A DNA stretch of 64,000 bases. It comes from Acanthamoeba sp. SK_2022b (Eukaryota > Discosea > Longamoebia > Acanthamoebidae). The position numbers were made by a program, and so were the translations under genes. Numbering within the stretch: position 1 is the first letter of the stretch; the number at the start of each line of letters is the position of its first letter. Below the pieces are notes generated by a model. The model was not told the origin of the DNA, did no database searches, and was given only the letters and a program-made list of their open reading frames with translations. Of the stretch, positions 21,660 through 38,100 are shown piece after piece. The stretch spans positions 62,001 through 126,000 of the forward strand of contig JANDJZ010000038.1 in the NCBI GenBank assembly GCA_027943245.1. The letters are read 5' to 3'.

Positions 21660-24600
21660 TCAGTTGAGCTTGGACATGAGCTCGCGGTGGCGACGCTCCT
21701 TGGCATACTCCTTCTCGCGCTTGCGCTGTTCCTTCTCCCAGCGCTTCTGATTCTCGCGTTCTTCCTCGATGCGGTTCTTCTCCTTCTGGCGGGCGATGTC
21801 GGGGGTGAGCTCCCACTCGAGCACCTCGCCGAGGTCCTGCACGGCCTTGGGCGCCGCGGTCTGGTTGAACTGCACGCGCACGGCGCCGTCGCTCACGCGG
21901 ACCTGGTACATCTGCGTCTGGTAGGGGTGGCCCTCGAACGCCGGCGTCGAGTTGGTGGTGTCCAGCACCAGCTGCACCTTCTGGGCACGTGCCAGCAATT
22001 GCTCACGAGCTGCGATGGGCACACAAAGGCGCTGGTTAGTTTCCAGTACGGGCATGCGTTGCGTGGCGGAGCTGGCGCGTACCGACGGGGTTGTGCGTGC
22101 TGAGCCAGGCGATGCCATTGTTGCCGGTGACGATCTTGCCCGGCAGGGCGTAGAGCATGGTGAGGTAGGACTCCAGCTCGGTGAAGTTCTGGAGCGACTC
22201 GACGTGCTTGGACTGGAGCACCTCCGTGAGGTCGAGCTCCACCGCTGCATGCACATCGTCGTATGCGCGAGACGTCAGTCACGGCACGCTGCAGCGACGG
22301 AGGCGGAGAAGGCGTACAGAGGGGAGCGGTGGCCGCCGCGGTGAGCTCCTCGCTGCACTTCTTGATCTGCGCCGGGCCGTGCCTCTCCAGGAAGTGGGCG
22401 ATGATGACCGGGCGCAGGTTGAGCACCCGCACGAGCTTCTGGCCCCACGACCCGCCCTCTGTGGCATTGGGCGCCAGCTGCACGTTGAGCACCAGCTTCG
22501 TGCCTTCCACCGTGGGCCTACATTTTCCGCAAACGGAATTGTGAGTTTGCGTTTGCATTTGTGTTTGCGCTTCGCGGGAGGTGGTGGACGCACCGTCCGT
22601 TTACGGAGCTGTCGGTGGCGTGACTGAGCGAGGGGTCGACCTTGATCTCGATGGAGTCCACCTTCTGGGCGATGGTCTCGCGCACGAGGGACAGCTCGCA
22701 CAGCTGGGGGAGGGCGGGCGCCCTGAAGAAGATCGCTTCGAGCAAGGCATTGCAGTAGTCCAAGATGTACCGCCTCTTGAAGGTCGCCGCGTGTTTCTGT
22801 AACCGCACACCACAAACGCCAGAGGTCAGCCACTCCCCAACCTCGAGAACACACTGGACGCGCGTGCTCTGCGTTGGCGTGACGAGGGCATTGGCCGCCA
22901 ACCTTGAAGACGTCCAGGGTGGTGAAGTCCCAGTTGGGCGTGAACGGCAGCGGCTTGCCGACCGTGTGAGTGAACTTGTCGGCGACCTGGGCGTTGTAGC
23001 TCTCGAGCGAATCATACTGAACGCGCCGGTAAAGAGAGCGTGAGCCCACAGTTTCACAATCGGAGGGGAGCGCTATGCGGGGAGGCGGAGGCGACGAGAA
23101 GTAATGGTGGGTAACCTGAGCGATGGGGACGAGCGCGTCGAAGGCCTCCTCGCCTCGGATCTGCCAGCTGTTCTTGAAGAGGTGCTTGGCGAGGACGTTG
23201 CGCAGGTCCAGCTCGACGTGCAGCTCGCCGTCCCGGTTCTCGACGGTGTCGGCCGAACCCTCGGGCACGATTCGGAAGAACACCCGCTTGAGCTTGGCCG
23301 AGTAGCAAGACTTGCCCACCGGGTGCACGTTCGTAATCAGCACACTGCACGCACGCACGCACGCACGCACAAAAACAAATATTAATCACAATTTAAAATC
23401 GATAGATGAACTTTTAATTTAAAAAAAAGGAAAGGAAAAAGAAAAAGAAATATTGCTGAAGGCGTGTACCCCTTGGTGACGGTCTCTTCGGGGAAGATGG
23501 CGTGGAGGGCCTCGACGACGAAGGACTTCTCCTCGGGCAGGAGGGCCTCGAACTGCGGCGTGTCGACCAGGGTCCAGTCGGCCTCGATGGGCACCGGACG
23601 GCCGAGCGACTCGGCCAGACTCTGGACGACCGCATTGTAGCGCTCGTCGGCCAGCGCCTTGTGCACCTGGATGAGGCGGGCAAGCAGCCGAGGTGGTCAG
23701 CCAAGCACTTGGTTGCGGTGGCGGGATAGGGGAAGGGTGCCCTGAAGGAGTCGTACCTGCACGATGACCTTAAGCAGGTTCTCGACGCGCTCGCGGCGCG
23801 CGAGAATCTTGCCCAGCAGGGAGGCGGAGGAGTAGCCGACGCTAACGCCCATCACGCTGCCGTCGAGGGAGAGCACGGGCTCCTGGGCGATGTTCTTGAT
23901 CTCGAGCACGACCAGGACCGAATCGATGGCGGCGGTGATGGCCTTGAACCCAATCTCGTGAGTGAGCGAGGTGCGGAGGCCCGACGTGGCGTTGGCCGCC
24001 ACCTGGTAGACGTTGCGCATGTAGCCCACCACGGTGTCGTGGCCCAGCCCAACGAACTCGGGGAGGGCGACGAAGGCGTCCCAGTTGATGCCCACCTTGA
24101 TGTCCTTCTTGGCCTGCTGGCTCAGGCCCTGGCTCAGCTTGGCGCAGTCCCTGTTGGCCGCCTCGATCTCGATGGGGATCGTGGCCTCGGTGATCCACTC
24201 GATCTCGTCCTGCAGCTTCATGTGGCGACGCGTCGCCTGGTCGTAGCCCATCGTGATGGACTAAAGAACACCGGTCAACAAGGATGATGACACGTCAGCA
24301 AACAAACCGCAGCGCAACAACTCCCACGAGAGATGGCGTGGCAAGCCGTACGAGAGTGCGTTCGTTCAGGGTGAGAGCCCAGGCGGCAGGGGTGGGCTTG
24401 AGGGTGATCACGATGCGGTCGACCTTCTCGCCGAGGATGCGCTTACCGGCCTCGGTCCACTCGCTCGCGGACTTGTAGCTATAATAGTGGTCGGAGAAGG
24501 GACGTGGCATGGGTTAGCATTGGCGCCCAAGTATCAGCGCAGACGCACGTCGCGGAAAGGCGTACATCTCGGCGAGGTGGTCGAGCTGCGTGGTGTGAAG

Positions 24601-27600
24601 GCCACGCAGGACGGACTCGACGCGGGAGGCGCCGAGGGCCTTGAAGGCGTGAGAGCGGAGGGTGGGTTCCCAGTTGATCTCGGCCTCGACCTTCTTGCCC
24701 ACGTAGCCGCTGACAGTCTTCTCGAAGCTGCGCAGCTTGTCCTCCGAGACGTACTTCTCGGTGAAGATGGCCATCACGGGCATCCACTTGGCGATGAACT
24801 CGCCCCTGAAGGTCTCGGTCGAGCCCTTGTCCTCGTTGATCGTGATCAGCACCTCGTTGTTGTCCTGCACGTCGATCTTGTACCAGCCCACGCTCGGGAA
24901 GTTTTCGAGCTGCTCACACGGCAAGGCGTCGCGACAGCGTCGTGAGCACGCATGTCTACACTGTTGTGTGGTGGCTCGCGGGGGAGGGGAGAGGCCGTAC
25001 CGGGTCGGCCACGCGGTTCTCGATGTCCCACGTGAAGGCGATCCTGCGGACGTAGCGCTGGAGGGCCTCGCGGGCGACGGGCGTGGCTGACTTCATGATC
25101 TGGGTGAGCACCTGGACCTGGGCCGCCGTCGGCGAGAAGGTGGCCTGAGGGATGAGGGTCTCCCAGAAGCGCGAGCACGTCTTGGCCCGAGGCTTCGGGT
25201 CCCACGTTAGGAACTTCTCGCTGAGACCGAAGGGCGCTGCAGCGCACGGCCAAAGAGAGACGACGGTGAGCCACTACTTGCCTGCAAGGGGGGGGGGAGA
25301 GAGAGAGAGAGAGAAGCTCCATACCAAAGTCGATGTCGATGTAGGCGTTGAGACGGGCCTTGTCGGTGAGCTCCTTCATGCGCGGCTGGGCCCTGGCCTG
25401 TGACTGGCACACGGCGATGTTGTAGAGCCTGTCGAGCTTCTCGCACAGAGGTGACTCCATCTGGATCTGGCCGTGCTGGGTCATGTTGATTGTGACGATC
25501 AGATCACCGTCCCTGTTGCGCTCGGCCTTGAAGGTGTTCCTGTTACGGCCATCGAACACCGAGTCGGTGGGATCGTATTGGAGCACGACCCGCTTCGTGT
25601 GGGACTGGACCAGGTTGCGCGCCACCTGATCAGCGCCAATCAGCTGGGCCAGCGCGCCTACGGCCTGACGCGCGCAGTTCTGGTAGAGCGTCTGTTGATT
25701 CCCAAGTCAAGCGTGTCAGCCACTCATGTAACGCGACCCGACACGCACTTGGAGCCAGACGGGGGAGGGCAGCTGTGTCGTGGTTACCTTGATCAGCTCG
25801 AGCTTGGTGCTGTCGGGCTTGGAGGTGAAGCTCTGGTGGTTGACCCAGTTCTCCCAGTTGAACCTGATGGGCAGGGTGGCGCCGACTGCGCGGGCCAGCT
25901 GTTCCTCTAGAGGAGTGACGAACGTCTTCAACGGGCCTACGTTGAGTCCCGCCGGCGGGTCGAGCTCCGCGGCGAGCGACTGGAACGAAGTGGGCTCGGG
26001 CAACAGGAACTGAATCTGTGATCGCCCAAATATTAATTTTCATTTTCAAAAGGCAAGGATAATAAAATAATAAAATAATAATTTTAGCATAGAACTAAAT
26101 TAGCGGAGCGGAAAGTAGGAGAGAGGAGCAGGGTACCTCCTTGGGCGGCTGGTAGGGAGTGTAGGCGCCCTTCTTGGCGGGCGCACCGGCGGCGGCCTCG
26201 TCGGCGTTGTCAGAGGGCTGGATGACGCCGTGCTTGGCCTGGGCGATCTTGATCTGCTGCTCGGCCTCGGCGAGCTTCTGCTTAAGGTGCTCGGCGGCGG
26301 CCTGAGCCTCGGCATTGGCGCCGAACTGGGCGAGCTTCTCGAGCAGGCGCTTGGACTTGGCCGCGGCATCCACGCCCTTGCGGTACTCCTCCTCCTGCAG
26401 CCACTTGGCGACGAAGGTCTGCGATGCACCGCAAGATGAGCAGCTGTGTGTGGTGGAATGCAGTGCATGCAGCTGACGTACCGAGAGGGCGGAGGTGGTC
26501 TTGCGGGCCTCCTCGAGCGCGGGCTGGAGGTGGTACTTGACGCGCAGCTGCGACAGGCGGTCCTCAGCGGCGAGCAGGGCCTGGTGGGCCGAGGACAGCA
26601 CGCCCTCGGTGGCGCTGTCCTCCTTGTACGGCTGGAGAGCCTTGACCAGCTCCTGCAGCTCCTTCTGCAGCTCGAGCCCCTGCTCGAAGTTCTCCCTCGT
26701 CGTCCACTTGCTGCTCGACGTCCTGAGCTGGCTCACGAGCGACTGCAAGACCAGCGTTAACACAGAGCAATCACACACAGGTCAGTATATAGAGACACAA
26801 CTCGCTCGAGCTCGAATGTGGGAGGCGTAGGATACCTCAGCCTTCTTCCTCAAGGGCTCGGCCTGGAACTTGAGGTTGGCCGACTTCATGGCGCCCTCGG
26901 CGGCCATGATCTTCTCCTTGGCCAAGCGGACGGTGGCCTCGGCCTGACCGTCACTGAACGCCTCCAGGCGCGGTACCAGCTGGCTAAGCTCGGTCAGCGA
27001 CTCCACTGCAGCGTTGTAGTTCTCCTCGACCCACCATTGCGAGGTGAAGCGCTGCAGGTCATCGAGATACGTCTAGTCAGTCACCGCTCAACCGACTAGG
27101 GAGCGAGGGACAGCGGCATTGCGTACGTTGAGCTTGTCAAAGTGCTGCTGCACCTGCTTCCTCAACGGCTCGGCCTCGTACTTGGCCTTGGCCAGGGGAA
27201 TGTTGGCTTGGGCCTTGGCGATCTTCTCCTTGGTGTTGGAGAGAACGGAGCTCACGTGGGAGTCGGCGGCGTAGGCCTCCAGGGCCGGCACCAGGACCTT
27301 GAGCTCCTCGAGAGCCTCCGAGGCCGTGTTGAAGTATTCCTCGTGATGCCACGACTTGATGAAGTTCTGTTGGGAATGAAGCATCAGGATCAGAAGTGCA
27401 CCCAGTGTTGCAGATGGAGGTAGGGAGAGCTATTGCGTGGACTTACGTCGAGCTTGGCGCTGACTTGGCCGACCTGCTGCTTGAGCGGCTCGGCCTCGAA
27501 TTTGAGCTTGGCCTGCGGCACGACGCTGTTGACGGCCTGGATTCGGTCCTTGGCCACCTTGATGGTGGTGGCGACGCCCGAGTCGGAAGCGTAGGCCTCC

Positions 27601-30600
27601 AGGGCCGGCAGCAGCGCCTCGAGCTCGCTCAGGCCCTCCATCGCAACGTTGTAGTACTCCTGGTGCTGCCACGACTTGATGAAGTTCTGTTGTCGTTCGT
27701 AGATTGAGACGCGTCAGTGGCTGTGACTGAAATAAAAAGAACATCCACGAAGGAGTAGATTGGGGAGGGGGGCGAACCGGCAGCTTGTCAGCAGCCTTGC
27801 TGACCATCTCTTGGAGGGGCTTGGCCTCGAAGCGAGCCTTGGCCAGCGGGAGGTTGGCCTCGGCCTTCTGCACCTTCTCCTTGACCGACTTGATGGTCGA
27901 CGCCACGTAGTTGTCCGAGGCATAGGTCTCAAGCGCGGGCAGCAGGGCGTTCACCTCGTCGATCGCCTCGATGGCCGTATTGTAGTACTCTTCGTGGTGC
28001 CACGTCTTGATGAAGTTCTGTTGTTGACATTGCGACCACCCCATCAGCGTGAGCGGCAATATTCTAGATTTGGGGGGGGGGGCAAGCTGTGGTTGCGTAC
28101 GTCAAGCTGGCTGGCGGTCTTTTCGAGGGTCGCGCGCAGAGGCTCGGCGGCGAACTTGAGCTTGGCCTGAGGGATGTTGGCCTCAGCCTTCTGGATGCGG
28201 TCCTTGGCCGCCCTGAGGGTGGTCGCCACGCCAGAGTCGGAGGCGAACTCCTCGAGCGCGGGCAGCACCATTTCCAGCTCCTCCAGCGTCTCGATCGCAA
28301 CGTTGTAGTACTCCTCGTGCTGCCACGTCTTAATGAAGTTCTGTTGGATGTTGTTGTAATTATTGTTGTCAGTGTACGTGTACCGAGCGAAAGAAGACGA
28401 GGATGACCATGGAGACGTACGTCCAGCTTGGCGTAGAGCTGATCGACCTTGTTACGCAGAGGTTCGGCCTCAAAGCGTGCGCGGGCCTGAGGGAAGTTGG
28501 CCTTGGCCGCCTGGATCTTGTCGCGCGCGGTCTTGATCGTGCGGGCCACCTGGTCGTCCGAGGCGTAGGTCTCCAGGGCCGGCAGGAGCTGTTCGAGCTC
28601 CTCAATGGTCTCCACCGCTGTATCGTAGTACTCCTTGTAATGCCACGACTTGATGAAGTTCTGTTTCCCCGTGGCACCAAGCACGGTGTTAAAAATGGGC
28701 TGGCCTTGTTGCAGCGTGTGTGATGTGTGGTGCGTGATGACGTACGTCGAGCTTGCCGTGAATTGTGCCAACCTTGTCGCGCAGCGGCTCGGCCTCGAAC
28801 TTGACCTTGGCCTGCGGGATGTTGGCCTCGGCCTGCGCGATCTTCTCCCTCGCGGCCTTGATGGTGTCAGCCACGTGAGAGTCCGACGCGTAGACCTCGA
28901 GCGCGGGCAGCAACAGGTTGAGCTCCTCAATGGTCTCCACCGCCGTGTCGTAGTACTCCTTGTGGTACCACGACTTGATGAAGTCCTGTTTTGTTGCAGG
29001 AGTGCACATGCACGTTCAGTGGATGTAGGGAGACGTGCGAACGGGAGCGGTGAAGTGATGTCCGTGTGAGGGAGACGTACGTTGAGCCTGCTGTAGGACT
29101 TGTTGACCTGATCCTTGAGAGCGGCCGACTCGAACTTGATCTTGGCCTGCGGGATGTTGGCCTCGGCCTTGGCGATCTTGTTCTTGGTGTGCGTGATCAA
29201 CTCAGACACGTAGGTGTCGCTGGCGTAGACTTCGAGCGCCGGCAGCAGAAGGCTGAGCTCTTCCATCGCCTCCATCGCCTCGTTGTAGTACTCTTGATAA
29301 TACCAGTCCTTGATGAATTTCTGTTGATTGTTGGTGACAGTGGTTGGCCAAAGAGACCGTCAGCAGCCGTGCGGTGCTCTTCAACAGAAAAGAAGAAACA
29401 GCAAAGGAAATACTTACGTCGAGCTTCGCCTGAGTCTTGTTGACCTGATCCTTGAGCGGCTCGGCCTCGAACTTGACCTTGGCCTGCGGGATGTTGGCCT
29501 CGGCCTGGGCCATCTTGCCCTTGGCATGCTTGATGACATCGGCCACGTGAGAGTCCGACGCGTAGACCTCGAGCGCCGGCAGGAGAGAGTTGAGCTCCTC
29601 AAGCGCTTCAATGGCCGTGTTGTAGTACTCCTGGTAATGCCAGCTCTTGATGAAGTCCTGTTGTCGATGTTGCGTGGGATTGATTGAGTTTCAGCGCCAC
29701 GCAGCGTCGACAGCGAGAAAGAGGGAGCCAGACGTACGTTCAGCTTCGAAGCGGTCTTGTCGACCTGATCCTTGAGCGGCGCGGCCTCGAACTTGACCTT
29801 AGCCAGCGGGATGTTGGCCTCGGCCTTGGCGATCTTCTCCTTGGCATGCTTGATGGTATCGGCCACGTACGAATCCGCAGCGTAGGCCTCGAGCGCGGGC
29901 AAGAGCGAGTTAAGCTGCTCGATGGCCTCGATGGCTGTATCGTAGTACTCCTGGTAATGCCAGCTCTTGATGAAGTTCTGTGGGTTGTTTGATCAAAGTT
30001 GTCGAGTGAGTCCAACTGTCTTTGAGGCCTTCATACGTGGGAGAGGGGCATACGTCGAGCTTCGACTGGGCCTTGTCGACCTGATCCTTGAGGGCGGCGG
30101 ACTCGAAGCGCATCTAGTCCTGTTGTGGTGCAGGGTGCACCGCGTCAGCAAACCTACTATGAACCAAGTGTCACAGAACGCCATCCAAGAAAAAGAGAAA
30201 GCCAAAAAACACGTACGTTCAGCTTCGAGGCGGTCTTGTCGACCTGATCCTTGAGCGGCTCGGCCTCGAACTTGACCTTGGCCTGCGGGATGTTGGCCTC
30301 GGCCTTGGCGATCTTCTCCTTGGCATGCTTGATGGTATCGGCCACGTATGAGTCGCTGGCGTAGACTTCGAGCGCCGGCAGCAGGCTGTTGAGCTCCTCG
30401 ATGGCCTCCACGGCCTCGTTGTAGTACTCCTTGTAGTACCAGTCCTTGATGAATTTCTGTTTTGTTTTGATTCGTTAGTTGGTTGGTTGGTTGGTTGTTG
30501 TGACCAGAAAGAAGGCATCAGCAGCCGTGTGGTACGGTTAAGACAGAAAGAAGAAGAAGAAGCAAAGGAAATACTTACGTCGAGCCTCGCTTGCGTCTTG

Positions 30601-33600
30601 TCGACCTGATCCTTGAGCGGCTCGGCCTCGAACTTGACCTTGGCCTGCGGGATGTTGGCCTCGGCCTTGGCGATCTTCTCCCTCGCGGCCTTGATGGTGT
30701 CGGACACGTATGAGTCGCTGGCGTAGACCTCGAGCGCGGGCAGCAGGTTGTTGAGCTCTTCGATCGCCTCCATGGCCTCATTGTAGTACTCCTTATAGTA
30801 CCAGTCCTTGATGAATTTCTGTATTGTTTTGATTTGTTAGTTGGTTGAGATGGACACGAACGTTGTTGGTCACGCCTGGCAAAGGCGTGTGGGAGAGGCG
30901 TGGCGTACGTCGAGGCGGCCGTGAGTCTGTGACACCTTCTCCCTGAGCCCGGCGGACTCGAACTTGATCTTGGCCTGGGGCATGTTGGCCTCGGCCTTGG
31001 CGATCTTCCCCTTTGCCGTCTGGATGACGCCGGCGATGTAGCTGTCCGTGCTGTAGGCCTCGAGCGCGGGCAGAAGGACGTTGAGCTCCTCAATGGCTTC
31101 GACGGCTTCGTCATAGTACTCCTTGTAGTACCAGTCCTTGATGAATTTCTGTTGGTCGGTAGAGCTGCGTCAGCACATCGGGATCACACACGTTTCGCGC
31201 TTGCACGCAGGCACGGGAGGGGATGGGCGTACGTCGAGCCTGTTGTGGGTGGCGGTCACCTTGTCCCTGAGCGGCTCGCCCTCGAAGCGGGCGCGAGCCT
31301 TAGGGAAGACGGCTTCGGCCTCGGAGATGGCCTTGTTGGCCTGGCGGATCATGTCGGCGGCGTAGCTGTCCGACGAGTACTGCTCCAGCACCGGCACCAG
31401 AGTCTTGATCTCCTCAGTGGCCTCCACCGCGTCATCATAGTAGGGCTTGTGGTGCCAGGTGTGGGTGAAGGTCTGCAAGCCACGACACAACACGCCAATG
31501 AGCTTTGGCACACGCGCGAGAGTCCCCAACTCGCGAGTGACGTACGCTGAGCTTGCCGAGAAGCGACCTGATCTTGTCGATGACCGACGAAGACTCGAAG
31601 CGGGCCTTGGCCTGGGGCACGAGCGCCTCCGCTTTGCTGAGCTTGCTCTTGGCATTCTTGACGTTGTCGGCCACGTAGGTGTCCGACGTGTAGGCCTCGA
31701 GAGCTGGCAGCAACTCCTTGAGCTCTTCCATCGCTTCCAGCGCCGTGTTGTAGTACTCTTGAACGTGGAAACGGTTGATGAAGTCCTGGAGTTCATCGAC
31801 AGCATCGTAAGAACGCGGCTAAACCAGATATATAAAAATATTAAGAGAGGGTGGAGGTACATCTAGCTTGCGGTGCACCGCGGTCACCTTTTCGTTGAGC
31901 GGGCCGGACTCAAAGCGCACTATTTGGCGCAGGAGAGGCGAACCTTGAGTGTGGTGATGTCACGGCCATACAACAAAGGGGTGATCACAGCGTACCTTTG
32001 GCCTGGGGCAAGACGGCTTCAGTCCGCTTGATCATATCCTTGGCGTTGGTGAGGGCGGTGGCCACGTAGGAGTCTGAGGCGTAGTTCTCGAGCTCGGGTA
32101 TGAGCACCTTGAGCTCCTCCAGCGCCTCGAGGGCCGTGTCGTAGTACTCCTTGACGTGCCAGCGGTTCACGAAAGGCTGCAGCCACCCACGAGCATCATG
32201 TCAGGCGTGTGCTGTGGTGTCGTGTGTGAAATAGGGAAGAGAGGGGGCGATAGAGAAACGTACATCGAGTTTCCTGTAGGTGTCGACGACCTTGTTCTTG
32301 AGCGGCTCAGCGGCGAATTGGACGCCTGCCTTGACAATGAGCTCTTGGGCCTTGGTCATCTTTTCCTTGGTAGTTTTGAGCACGTGGGCGACGTCGCTGT
32401 CGGAGCTGTAGGCCTCGAGCGCCGGCACCAATGCCTTGAGCTCCTCCATCGCCTCCACCGCGTCGTTGTAATAGCTCTGCACGTGCGGCCGGCTGATGAA
32501 ATCCTGTTGTGGTGTGGTACGTGGCGTCAGCGAATACACACTGACCTCTAGCCAACAACACGAACGATTGCCTGCGACGTACATTCATCTTGGCGTGAGT
32601 CGCCGACACCTTGTCCTTCAACGGCGCCGACTCGAACTTCACTGTTGATAGAGGCGACCCCGTCATCAAGAGGCTGTCAGATCTGGGGTGAAGAAGGGGT
32701 CGAGCAGGCGAGGAATGGGGCGGGTACGCTTGGCAGCGGGCACGAGCGGTTCGGCCTTGGCGATCTGCGCCTTGGTGGACTTGATCAAGTCTTCGACAGA
32801 GGAGTCGATGGCGTAGGCTTCGAGGGCCGGCACCAGCGTGGCCAGCTCCTCCAGGCCCTCCATAGCCGTGTTGAAATAGTTTTGCACATGCGGTCGGTTG
32901 ATGAACTCCTGTGGTAATGAGCGTTTGCATTCGGACGAAAGTATTGGGGGAGGGGAGCAGCTACGAGTGAGCGACGTAAGGCGCGAACAGAACGAGAGGA
33001 GCCTGAGGCGTACGGTGAGCTTATCCTTGGACTTCCTAACCAGGTCCACGAGCGGCTTGGACTCGATGCGCGCCTTAGCGATCGGGATGTTTTTGTTGGC
33101 CTTGTCGATGTTCTCCCTGGCGGACTTTACCGTGTTGGTAACAAATCCGTTGACGTCGCCAAACTCCTCGAGAGCCGGCAGCAGGGCCTGCAGCTGTTCG
33201 AGCGCGTCGACGGCGACGTTGTAGGCGTTCTCGTCATGCCACCTGTTGATGAAGTCCTGAAGCTTGCTCGACCACTTCGACACCTCAAGGCGGAGGCCTT
33301 CCACCGAGCCTTCCTGGCTGTATTTGTTGAGCTGTTGTGTCACAACTCAAGCGTGTGAGTGGCCACAACGGGTAGGTGCGTGGGGGGGGGGAGACTCGTT
33401 GCGTACGGCAGCATCGGCGTCCGCAACCGTCTGCTTCGAGGCGGCGATCACGATGGCGGGCTTGAGATCGCCGGGCACGCTGACGCCGGCATGCTGCTCA
33501 AGCTCCGCCGCGGTCGTCCACAACTCGTCCTTCAGCCGACGAACGTCGTTGGCCTCTGCACAGAGTCACAGCATCCGCGATCACGTTGGTGAGCATATGC

Positions 33601-34588
33601 GACGACACTGTGGCTGTGCTGCGTGCATGTCTAGACGAGGAGAGGGCGCAGCATAATACCTTTCTCGTTGACGATGCGACCGAAGAGGACGCCCTTGAGG
33701 TGTCGCTGCTGGGCATCGGTCTTCTTCAACAGCTCAACGACTTCCTTGATCTGTTGGGCGCCCTGGTCGGCGTTCGAGGCCTGGGCCAGCTTGGCGGCGG
33801 CTTCGTCGAGACCGGCCTTCAGTGCGGGCACCTTGGCCTTGGCCTATCCGCGACAGCAGGTCAGGCGTTGCCCCACCGCTCAAAAAGCGAGGCTAGTCCG
33901 AACCTTATCGAGAGCACCATACTTGCCGATGAAGACGTCAAGAGCCGGTTGGAACTCAGCCACAGCGTCGGCCAGCCGCTTCAGGTCCGCTTCCGCTGTA
34001 GCCACCGTCAAGAAATGAGAAAGGGAACAGGAAATCAACTTTCTCCAAGAACGGTGTTTGTCGCCTCGCGAACGGGATACGTACCAGGCCGGATGACGGA
34101 GCCAGGAACGAAGATAACAGCGCGCGCGGCGTCCTGAGTCTTCTTGAGGAGCGCTTCCACGGCCTTGAGTTCGGCGTCGACCTCCTTGGCCTTGCTGGCT
34201 CCATCGATGGCCGCAGCCGCCTGCGCCACGGCAGCTTCGAGAGCCGGCAACTTGGCCTGCACCTTCGCATCCGACCTGTCCAACTATTTGCCGTACACAC
34301 ACCATAAATTTAGGTATATTTACCAATAGTAAAAAACTCTGTTTGGCGACACATGTGCCGTCAGATAAGCTTTGACGCCCTCGCCCATGCATTAACGGAA
34401 GAACGAAAGCGAAGGTCGAGGAAGGAGGGGGGCGTCTTTAAGAGCGGGGGTACCTGGGCTAGCTTGTCGTTAAGCTGGTTGAGAAAATTCTGGGCCTTGG
34501 GTGCTTCGTTGGGCATGAGGTGGAGGAACCGCGACGAGTTCTCCAGTGAGCTCTTCAGAGCCTCGGCTTCGCGCAGCAGAGCGTCCAT
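21660..34588 (-). CDS. Giant modular repeat protein, about 3,100 residues
   Basis: A single multi-exon gene: at least 36 exons follow in compatible phase from the ATG at 34588 (MDALLREAEALKSSLENSS) to TGA at 21660 (RHRELMSKLN). Order: N-terminal helical exons (34588-33407) containing two related segments (LPALEAAVAQAAAA, VPALKAGLDEAAAK); about 21 full copies of an 80-residue helical repeat (33334-26136); then an alpha/beta part with six or seven divergent modules (26015-21660) and a charged coiled tail (KEKNRIEEERENQKRWEKEQ). No signal peptide, membrane segment or catalytic motif is seen, so it is likely an intracellular structural or scaffold protein; this is inference. Repeats 5-19 are mostly one per 240-nt exon with phase-0 introns. 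I recognise no family. A split into two genes is possible but unneeded: the join at 26136/26015 is GT-AG and phase 0. Confidence 0.85.
23347..23370 (+). repeat. (GCAC)n microsatellite in intron
   Basis: About six tandem GCAC units within an intron of the giant gene, close to the donor of the exon that ends near 23470. Confidence 0.85.
25288..25313 (+). repeat. G-run and (GA)n in intron
   Basis: A run of G residues followed by tandem GA in an intron of the giant gene. On the coding (minus) strand this is a polypyrimidine tract (TC)n then C-run. Confidence 0.85.
30054..30113 (-). other. Truncated repeat exon (20 codons)
   Basis: Encodes only MRFESAALKDQVDKAQSKLD, the last quarter of a repeat. 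Upstream of it the usual acceptor CAACAG is followed by GAC then TAG. Splicing at CAACAG would give a stop after one codon, but splicing six bases further at that TAG keeps phase 0 and the reading frame. It looks like a repeat exon that lost about 180 bp internally. Confidence 0.75.
30475..30500 (+). repeat. (GTTG)n microsatellite in intron
   Basis: Tandem GGTT units in the intron between two repeat exons of the giant gene. Confidence 0.8.
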
Positions 34589-35123
34589 GACAACTGTTCA
34601 AGTTCTACTTCGGAACCGGGGTATGTGTACAAGCTTCGAAAAAGCGGGCTGGGGCTGGCGCAGTCGTGAGGAACGGCGATGCCTTTGCGCAAGGAGATAG
34701 ACACTGAAACGGGCCTTGACTTCCGGTTTTTTATAAGTTCCTGCCTCCTGCGCCGATTGGCCGCAAGCGGGCGAATGAGAGCGCTAATTGCGGTACTTGG
34801 AAGAGCTCGCCGCGAAGTGCTCTTCCTCTAAGTCCTGGCGGCTTCTCCCTACCAAGAACTCACAATGGCTCCGCAGTACATGGCGCCTTGTGTGCCTTTG
34901 ATACTGATGTTTTGCCAATGGTTTACAACGGGCGACACGGTTTTACACCACCGATGCTGCCCGATAACCAGCTTCGGGCCTTTTCGAGGAACTGGGTGTT
35001 GCCCTCTCTGTAAGAAAATCGCTTGTTGTATTTACACCAAACAGGTGGACTGCTGTACACTGGTCGTCCTCCTGGCACTTATCTACATCTAAGAGAGCCG
35101 GCTCTCTCTTTGTGCTAGCAATC
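34589..35123. other. Promoter region of giant gene / LCAT-like 3' flank
   Basis: Includes a CCAAT-like ATTGG at about 34757 and a 75-codon cysteine-rich plus-strand ORF at 34865-35092 that I cannot support as a gene. A perfect 16-bp palindrome AGAGAGCCGGCTCTCT lies at 35092-35107. Confidence 0.5.
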
Positions 35124-38100
35124 TCACACGTGGAGTACCTTTTCTCCGGTGCGCACGCTGTCCTCGTGCGAAGAACGCTCGGCGGCGACAACGCGCTGTT
35201 GGTCGACGACGGCGACCATTTCGTCCGTCTCCACCACCATCTCGGTGTGCGGCGCGGTGGCGTGGGTCTGGGAGGTTGACGGCCGTATGATATGCTGCTT
35301 CACCGACGGCTTCAGTCGGCACGACTGGTCCAAGGTGAGGTCGCCGAACACGTAGCTGGAGCCACAATGGAGAGAGAGAGAGAGACGATGGTCAACAACA
35401 CTGGCTGGGAGAGGGGGGGGGGGAGTGGAAAGACTACGCGTACCGGTATTCACAAAACTCGGGGTACTTGCACTTGGCAGCCAGGTAGTCCCACGCGCAG
35501 TCGTAGTCGCCCCGAGGCACGCGGGCATGCTGCGTGGGGGGGGGGGAAATAGATGAACGAGTAGGTAAGGCCACGGTCGTCGGCGAGGCCTCACAAACAC
35601 ACTACCTTGTGGGCAAACGAGCTGAACGAAGAAGCAGACGGTCCGCCCTCGCCATACTCGCCGGCTATTTGCTGTAGGACTGGATGTCCGAAAACGGGGC
35701 AACCGGTCAAGTCAGTCGATGTGGGCAGCACGAAACCAGCAACACAAGCAGCGCCCGTACTGGAGCGTTCGTGAAGGATCTCCTCCGCAAACTCGCGCAG
35801 GAATACGCGGTTCTTGATGACGTCCCTGTGGTCGACGCCGTCGATCTCCCACACGGCAGTGGCGTCGCCACGGCCGGTCGTGTTTACAGATTCGTAGAAA
35901 GTGATCAACGGCTCGCCTGATCCAGGTGCGCCGTGAGTGACGCCCGACGCCCTTCGCTAGTAGCTCATTGTAGGGTGGGAGCGGTACCTGGAACAATGAT
36001 GTCCTTGTTCGGATCGTCCTTGTTGTAGAAACGCTGCGGGATCTTGGTGGTGGTCACCTTGCCTTTGTCGCCCAGCCACTGGTGGCACCACGAGAGGGAC
36101 ACGTAGGGCACTGTCCCATCGCCTGTGGTGGGTCGAAACCAACGTGAGCACTGCGCTGTACCCAACAGTACGATCCGAACAAGGACACGTGTGACGACGA
36201 GAGAACAGAGAGAGTGGGCCCATACCCGACTTGGTGGCATCGGACGGATAGGTGACGCCGGTCAGTTCAGAGTAGATCCGGCCCTTGTCCTCGTAGGTGA
36301 TGTCCTCGATGCGCCACTGCTCCTTGAGCAGGTCGGTGGCGTAGTGATACCCCAGTTCGGTCCGCATGTTGATGCCTAGCCGACGGTTCGAGTGGACGCG
36401 TGAGCCATATAGCGCACTCTCGCTGTAGCCTGGGCAGGCGTGCACCACGTACCGTATGCGCAGATGACCTTCCTGATGGGCGGGCGCTCCCAGGGAGTGT
36501 AGTGCTCCATGACGGGATCGGAGAGGTAGTACTTGTTGATGATGTTTACAGTGTTGTTGACCTTGCCGTCCACGGGAGCGATGTCGTTCAGAGCGTCGAG
36601 GATCTGCGACGAGTTGTAGACCTGCGTCCACGGGAACGGCTTGCTCTTGCCGTTTCTCTGGGCCCTCTTCTTCAACTGCTGCTGGCGCTGCCTCAGCGCC
36701 TCGGCCTTCTCCTCCTCGTTCGTCTCGTTGCTCCGTTCGAATTCGGCGTTGGCTGCATTCAAGAGCGCCTCCTCCTGCTGACGAATGGCCTCGGCGTCGC
36801 GCTGCTGCTGCGTCTTGGCCCAATCCGCGTTCGCGGTGAGGGTGATGAGGTTGTCGATCGGCCAGATGTTGCTGTGCTCTCCCTTGGGATTGAATGGAAT
36901 GTTCCACGAAGGGGTACCGAACCTATCACGAAAGCGTAAGGCAACAAAAGCGTTGGCCATGTCCCACACACATCGACATTGAATAGAAATGCCAGCGCGA
37001 TGGTCTGGACGAGGGAGCATACGTCGAGGCCATTTCGCGGGCGAGCTCGGGGCTGATGCGAGGCAGACCAAATGTGACGCCGCTCATGATGCCCTCGAAG
37101 GCTTGCGGCGCTCCTGCAGAGACCACAGCGCATTGAGTGAGCGAGGCCCCGCGCGCAGAGTCAACTCCGACGGAACACAACAAGGCGACCGAGACTGACA
37201 GGGCTGGCGTACCGAGCAGGGGAGCGCCAACAGCCACGTAGGCAGCAATGTTGTTGTCGAGCCACTCCTGGTACTTGTCCTTCTGGTGGTCCTCGAGCCA
37301 TTCCAGGAAATACCTGAAGATGTTGTTTCCTGAAAGAGAGAGTGTGACAACCGAGGTGATGTGGCGTGAGGTGGCCGAAAGCGCGACATAGCGCGGTGGT
37401 GCGTACCCATGGAGTGGGCCATGACGATGAGACCGGGATGGGCAAGCTTCTTGGTGCGACGCTGGGTCTCCACAGTGACCTCGATCTTGACCATGAGCGA
37501 ACGGAAGAAGTAGTCGCGCTCCTGCAGCTTGCTGGGCGCCAAGCGGAAGTCGTAGGGAGCCGCCACGATGGTGGTGCCGGGTTCATAGTCAAAGATCTCC
37601 ACCATAGCGCGCACGAACTCTTGCCACACAGTCGATAGCGGGCCGGGCCGGTCAAGATGCCTGGCCCACCATACGCACGAGTGTAAGACTCGAGACAACG
37701 GAAAGAGGAAGCGCGTAGGGACATACCAGGGTCGAGCTCGCCAATGGCGGTCATGCCCTCACCTGGACGGAGCTTACAGCCATTGGGCGGGTCGGAGAGG
37801 TCCTCCGGGACCAGCTTCATGCACTCCACCCAGCACGTCGGGGCGCCCAGGATCTTGGCCACGTCAATCCACACTCGGTCGGCGAGGTTGTAGCTGAAGG
37901 GGAAGCAGTCCTTGAAGCGCCAGTTGTAGAGCTGTGTGCTGGCAAACCCGGGAAGCAACAGCACCGCGTTGTGGTCTCCAGAGGCCATCGATTGGGCTGC
38001 GGCGGCCGCGGCTGACGCAGACGATGCGGCCGCGTTCGATGAGGCATCAGACGATGGAGCAGCAGAGATGGAGGAAGAGTAGTTGTTGTGGTCCGCAGAG

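Follow-up and report, generated by a model that had tools for sequence, protein, structure and literature searches.

A tandem array of compact 80-residue helical repeats, built largely of one-unit exons and predicted to be spectrin-like, in a giant gene of Acanthamoeba

The window analysed here, a stretch of 64,000 nucleotides from Acanthamoeba sp. SK_2022b (assembly GCA_027943245.1, contig JANDJZ010000038.1, positions 62,001 to 126,000 of the forward strand; coordinates below are those of the window), carries on its minus strand an array of 21 full repeat units (U1-U9 and U11-U22) and a 20-residue unit remnant (U10t), running from 33256 to 26137. The array is real, conserved and exon-modular, and its helical architecture is predicted to be spectrin-like and would thus be a variant of a known one. 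Taking our explanation as a whole, it is probable that the array belongs to one minus-strand gene, extending from about 34588 to 21660 and encoding a protein of approximately 3000 residues (about 339 kDa). The points of interest are the compact 80-residue unit, the one-exon-one-unit design, the combination of conserved outer units with a changing centre and an unexplained C-terminal region.

The unit profile was built from the 18 units of 240 or 243 nt and covered residues 279-1948 of the 2818-residue gene model described below, the sole gap being two residues at U20/U21 (i-Evalues 1.2e-44 to 4.4e-8). The 18 units other than U20-U22 scored 103-137 bits. Unit length was exactly 80 residues in 17 of the 21 units (U2-U9 and U11-U19) and 81 in U1, and U20-U22 were diverged. 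Fifteen units (U3, U5-U9 and U11-U19) each correspond to a single 240-nt exon with phase 0 at both ends, and U2 and U4 are split into 181 and 59 nt by an extra phase-1 intron at the matching unit position (after ...P.AK). Between them, U3 has no such intron, which hints at either an older two-unit arrangement or an intron loss in U3. Introns of 63-122 nt fill 19 of the 20 spaces between adjacent full units, and the remaining space holds U10t. In U10t the usual acceptor is followed by GAC TAG and the tag can itself be used as acceptor, giving a 20-residue in-frame exon; skipping and splicing at the tag both preserve the frame and splicing at caacag meets a stop. When one unit was searched against the whole 44.9-Mb genome (1129 contigs) at least 21 matches were obtained, all at this locus, and the unit profile found nothing outside this gene at E ≤ 1 in the six frames of the window. 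The same genome encodes an actophorin exon that agrees with Acanthamoeba actophorin (PDB 1ahq) at 72 of 76 residues, which supports the assignment to Acanthamoeba and shows that the sequence is not that of the PDB entry. The full units, all located with the unit profile, and the remnant are as follows:

33014..33256, minus strand: U1, 81 amino acids, within a 318-nt exon (profile on the spliced model); groups with the related fragments P0016, P0031 and P0035
32583..32908, minus strand: U2, two exons (32908-32728 and 32641-32583)
32264..32503, minus strand: U3, single 240-nt exon
31861..32176, minus strand: U4, two exons (32176-31996 and 31919-31861)
31546..31785, minus strand: U5, single 240-nt exon
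31233..31472, minus strand: U6, single 240-nt exon
30909..31148, minus strand: U7, single 240-nt exon
30579..30818, minus strand: U8, single 240-nt exon, central (also intron and codon comparison, tree)
30217..30456, minus strand: U9, single 240-nt exon, central, 90% DNA identity with U8 (also tree)
30054..30113, minus strand: U10t, unit remnant (last 20 residues only), preceded by ...caacagGACTAG
29738..29977, minus strand: U11, single 240-nt exon, central (also tree)
29418..29657, minus strand: U12, single 240-nt exon, central; followed by an intron similar to that between U8 and U9
29081..29320, minus strand: U13, single 240-nt exon
28746..28985, minus strand: U14, single 240-nt exon
28421..28660, minus strand: U15, single 240-nt exon
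28101..28340, minus strand: U16, single 240-nt exon
27778..28017, minus strand: U17, single 240-nt exon
27447..27686, minus strand: U18, single 240-nt exon
27127..27366, minus strand: U19, single 240-nt exon
26836..27051, minus strand: U20, diverged, 216-nt exon (64.6 bits to the unit profile)
26482..26742, minus strand: U21, strongly diverged, 261-nt exon (25.7 bits)
26137..26418, minus strand: U22, strongly diverged, 282-nt exon, followed by a short A/P/K-rich linker (20.0 bits)

The counts are based on a curated list of exons, which was adopted because automatic modelling that made introns cheap cut the exons into too many pieces. The 38 curated exons, from 34588 to 22605, join in frame with zero stops into a model of 2818 residues, and adding the last 199 residues, which come from the first gene model only (stop at 21660), gives a total of 3017 residues. 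Splice sites were regular, with donors mostly resembling gtacgt or gtaagt and acceptors resembling caacag. The gene models disagree, which leaves doubt over the start, at 34588 or in frame at 34516, and over the exon structure below about 22500. The first-pass annotation of this DNA had assigned the repeats to 26136..33334, which agrees with the position of the units, but the gene runs well beyond that interval at both ends.

Three protein searches gave 38 related fragments; 34 contain units, with 47 unit hits in total, and the other four derive from the C-terminal region. Twelve fragments had two or more unit hits and provided 13 junctions, at 11 of which the neighbour order of the window was kept as judged by best match (U1-U2 twice, U2-U3, U5-U6 twice, U13-U14, U17-U18 three times, U18-U19 and U19-U20). 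Central-type units are concerned in both exceptions, P0002 (U12 then U8) and P0004 (U8 then U14), and the margin of the best match was sometimes narrow (the second unit of P0005 scored 248 with U6 and 247 with U14). Five of the 13 junctions, in P0001, P0003, P0016, P0024 and P0029, were intronless and in register, and the other eight carried 20-37 residues resembling translated intron. Given that intron-like residues occur elsewhere in each of P0001, P0003, P0016 and P0029, these four appear to reflect the loss of introns in genomic DNA rather than spliced cDNA. The intronless fusions thus lend independent support to the predicted joints and indicate that fused neighbour units end up in one protein, and the assumption that the repeats are not split among unrelated genes held for the units. 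They also bear on an alternative in which the exons are mutually exclusive or skippable in the manner of Dscam and each protein contains few units. Fifteen exons of equal length (240 nt) and phase 0-0 could each be skipped in frame, as such a scheme needs, whereas the pairs fused without intron (U1-U2 twice, U2-U3, U13-U14 and U17-U18) would be expressed together, an argument that does not extend to the skipping of single units; we consider this alternative very unlikely. A viral origin or spread was rejected since scans of viral contigs with a single unit, with an alignment of the units and with one of the C-terminal region yielded no credible relative; the two hits of one scan carried an identical 88-residue open reading frame (37% over 58 residues) that was taken as chance. 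Relatives in bacteria or archaea, or genomes of these contaminated with amoeba DNA, were likewise dismissed, as 96 stretches matched a pattern and none was confirmed.

The relationships among units were examined in a tree of 58 rows (19 window units and 39 fragment units of at least 60 residues) and 80 columns, which omits eight shorter hits, U10t, U21 and U22 and in which 19 of 54 inner branches are open. Strong grouping with foreign fragments was seen for 11 of the 19 window units (U1, U2, U3, U5, U6, U7, U13, U17, U18, U19 and U20) and no supported foreign partner for U4, U8, U9, U11, U12, U14, U15 and U16. Foreign central-type units partly grouped among themselves (P0019 with P0021; P0018 with P0028 and P0032). 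These groupings indicated that the outer units include many old ones, each conserved in its own right, and that the centre turns over. The earlier description of the array as young and still changing therefore applies to the central units only, given that all of the partnered units except U13 lie outside U8-U13 and that most junctions are ordered. Outer units and their partners reached 94-96% protein identity (U18/P0006 and U19/P0023), so that the last duplications need not postdate the split from the nearest relatives.

The 21 full copies, 15 of them exactly one per 240-nt exon, bear out the first-pass annotation, but the central copies are not nearly identical as it had stated, the closest pair (U8/U9) sharing 90% of DNA and 89% of protein positions. 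Among the 15 pairs formed by U8, U9 and U11-U14, DNA identity was 74-86% in 13, 71% in one and 90% in U8/U9. The lowest synonymous divergence (dS) among the 21 pairs of U7-U14 was 0.28 per site, and the ratio of nonsynonymous to synonymous divergence (dN/dS) was below 0.6. When introns were compared (210 pairs), the U8-U9 and U12-U13 introns scored 53, whereas none of 1500 shuffled pairs exceeded 24. A common 3' part was seen in the introns U7-U8 and U8-U9 (37), and U13-U14 and U18-U19 scored 28. Judged from the intron sequences, these likenesses are traces of block duplication. An assembly artefact in part, with collapsed or mis-joined central repeats, might be suspected from the truncated U10t within the most similar stretch and from an assembly of 1129 contigs. 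We give it a slim chance, given that the central units are at least 10% apart in DNA, that most introns differ, that dN/dS is low and that related fragments hold similar central units.

In the predicted structure a helix of approximately 22 residues alternates with a helix of 44-49 residues that spans the unit boundary, and two consecutive units could be superposed on alpha-spectrin 16-17 (PDB 5j4o) with 176 residues aligned at 3.3 Å. The prediction supports a helical rod, one of the two shapes (solenoid or rod) proposed earlier, but the predicted architecture, three-helix bundles linked by continuous helices, is spectrin-like and not new. Prolines inside the predicted helices are conserved at unit position 27 in 18 of 18 units, position 57 in 17 and position 67 in 15. 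If the units instead stacked as helix pairs into an alpha-alpha solenoid or superhelix, as TPR or HEAT repeats do, the very unequal helices (22 versus 44-49 residues) and the long helix across the unit boundary would be difficult to explain. Among the structure matches listed, the named spectrin-class rows cover 156-191 residues and four tcTRP9 rows cover 71-79; folds missing from this list were not counted as excluded. A solenoid thus appears improbable as compared with a linear spectrin-like rod.

At the sequence level the units form a family for which the libraries searched contain no good model. No strong match to the units was found in Pfam, NCBIfam or PDB, the PDB sequences giving nothing relevant, and the literature, as covered by titles and abstract openings, contained nothing describing this array. 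The proposal of an undescribed family is in this sense partly upheld, but it is weakly qualified by the spectrin-type Pfam model PF24531 (ANC1_spectrin), which exceeded its cut-off of 27 bits in four of seven multi-unit pieces (U11-U13, 28.6; U1-U4, 30.4; U5-U8, 29.1; U14-U17, 43.6). It stayed below in the other three (U18-U22, 26.4; the N-terminal piece with U1-U3, 18.6; P0001, 14.2); U1-U3 are present in two pieces and U9 in none. The best stretch began at unit position 65-68 in six of the seven pieces and about 20 residues before U1 in the N-terminal piece, and the reversed U11-U13 sequence used as control had no match at E ≤ 1. None of 16 single units matched PF24531 at 0.1 and an exon-wise genome search found nothing. 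STN1_2 (33.2 bits, cut-off 27.2), DUF7902 (30.4, cut-off 26) and PDE4_UCR (30.1, cut-off 26.9) also passed in single pieces, and since unrelated families pass too, exceeding a cut-off is weak evidence for sequences of this composition. These three were taken as composition effects, as were aldehyde dehydrogenase matches (E 0.015) to a three-unit profile built from 8 of 10 triples; DUF7783, precomputed for P0001, reached 25.9 and 26.9 here, slightly short of its cut-off of 27.

The classical spectrin family PF00435 was absent among the matches listed at E ≤ 1 for the multi-unit pieces, none of which contains U9 and for three of which the listing comprised the best 25. It was not matched at 0.1 by any of the 16 single units, among them U9, and an exon-wise genome search gave no match, though its control genomes gave none either. 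True descent from metazoan-type spectrin or nesprin repeats, shortened in this lineage, would account for the register-consistent PF24531 matches and the tandem spectrin superpositions and is compatible with our explanation. Given that no PF00435 match was listed, that a PDB spectrin sequence match was absent and that other families passed cut-offs in the same pieces, such descent seems unlikely, though less so than the other alternatives considered.

The Acanthamoeba units thus resemble spectrin and alpha-actinin repeats (PF00435) in being tandem helical repeats in which a continuous helix is predicted to connect three-helix bundles, and differ from them in the conserved prolines inside predicted helices and in the lack of a listed PF00435 match. 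Spectrin genes, unlike this array, are for the most part not known to have a one-exon-per-repeat design. The very long arrays of diverged spectrin-like repeats in the ANC-1/nesprin region (PF24531; nesprin-2G, PDB 6xf1) offer another likeness, but no CH or KASH domain was recognised here and the PF24531 matches are weak; in contrast to plakins and plectin with their spectrin repeats (PDB 5j1h), Pfam recognised no SH3, plakin or plectin-repeat module. To our knowledge, a spectrin-like activity of Acanthamoeba has long been known and has not been assigned to a gene. GP-260 of Acanthamoeba is reportedly a large, biochemically described spectrin-like protein, which might conceivably be linked to this gene; at 260 kDa versus about 339 kDa predicted here, the masses do not fit. 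Spectrin repeats have about 100-115 residues, as compared with 80 here, and the usual account derives long spectrin rods from an actinin ancestor by duplications within the gene (PMC9145010). Acanthamoeba is not mentioned in the passages concerned (PMC9145010).

Under the spectrin-like model every unit junction could form a three-helix bundle, and the array would then be a spectrin-type rod that is compact, with 80 instead of 100-115 residues per repeat. From the helix length the rod would measure about 75-80 nm (21 × about 3.7 nm, near 77 nm). It may lie in the cytoplasm and act as a spacer or cross-linker that keeps the N-terminal helical part at a distance from the C-terminal region, where binding sites would be located. 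Owing to the symmetry of the 240-nt exons, unequal exchange among central units could lengthen or shorten the rod by entire units with the reading frame intact, and many outer units, being individually conserved, would keep fixed roles. We tentatively propose, as a serious possibility, that compact spectrin-type repeats of 80 residues, with one symmetric exon each, form a class belonging to the amoeba lineage. The outer units of the rod would be fixed and the central number would vary between lineages, tuning spacer length in whole-unit steps, and a second repeat region joined to the rod, likewise undescribed, would serve as anchor; the rod may correspond to the spectrin-like activity of Acanthamoeba. 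An amoeba array of 21 exon-quantised units, each of 80 residues, would represent another route to a long spectrin-type rod, by descent or convergence, and a clean case in which many outer units are individually conserved while the centre turns over. The array also provides a candidate for the large linkers in an amoeba that is widely used as a model.

The features outside the array are the following:

21660..26015, minus strand: C-terminal region, about 1045 residues (gene models, self-alignment; exons below about 22500 uncertain)
33257..34588, minus strand: N-terminal helical region, about 278 residues (gene models; curated exons in frame without stop)
34588-34454, 34283-34085, 33995-33904, 33843-33660 and 33555-33407, and start of the U1 exon at 33331-33257, minus strand: N-terminal exons
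34730..34735, minus strand: TATAAA motif upstream of the ATG at 34588, candidate promoter read directly from the sequence

The C-terminal region showed a weak second internal repeat at 137-152 residues with a motif around ...I.INW....F, and in self-alignment the best windows scored 52-54 among 630 pairs as compared with a maximum of 46 in 3000 shuffled pairs. One of its exons has four relatives (P0011-P0014) at 66-82% identity. The contigs of P0008, P0020 and P0027, which contain units, and of P0014, which is C-terminal, are all 13,213 bases long, which suggests one contig and a matching linkage in another genome. No Pfam match was found for 1032 residues of the region at E ≤ 1, and its structure prediction had a mean confidence (pLDDT) of 38.9 and was hence left unused. 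No CH, EF-hand, SH3, plakin or KASH module was recognised in these 1032 residues or in an N-terminal piece of 236 residues, which had no Pfam match at 0.001, though a missing or wrong exon could hide one. The Kyte-Doolittle mean was at most 1.77 over every 19-residue stretch, and neither an actin-binding nor a membrane module was recognised.

The N-terminal region comprises five exons and the start of the U1 exon, 34516 being its alternative in-frame start. Two of its exons within 34283-33660 (minus strand) look alike by eye (..KLPALEAAVAQ.. and ..KVPALKAGLDE..) and may represent a short internal duplication, which would be the third in this gene. The neighbouring reading frames at 35957-37582 (minus strand) resemble an LCAT/PDAT-type acyltransferase, though one 235-residue frame (36379-37083) had no Pfam match at 0.001.

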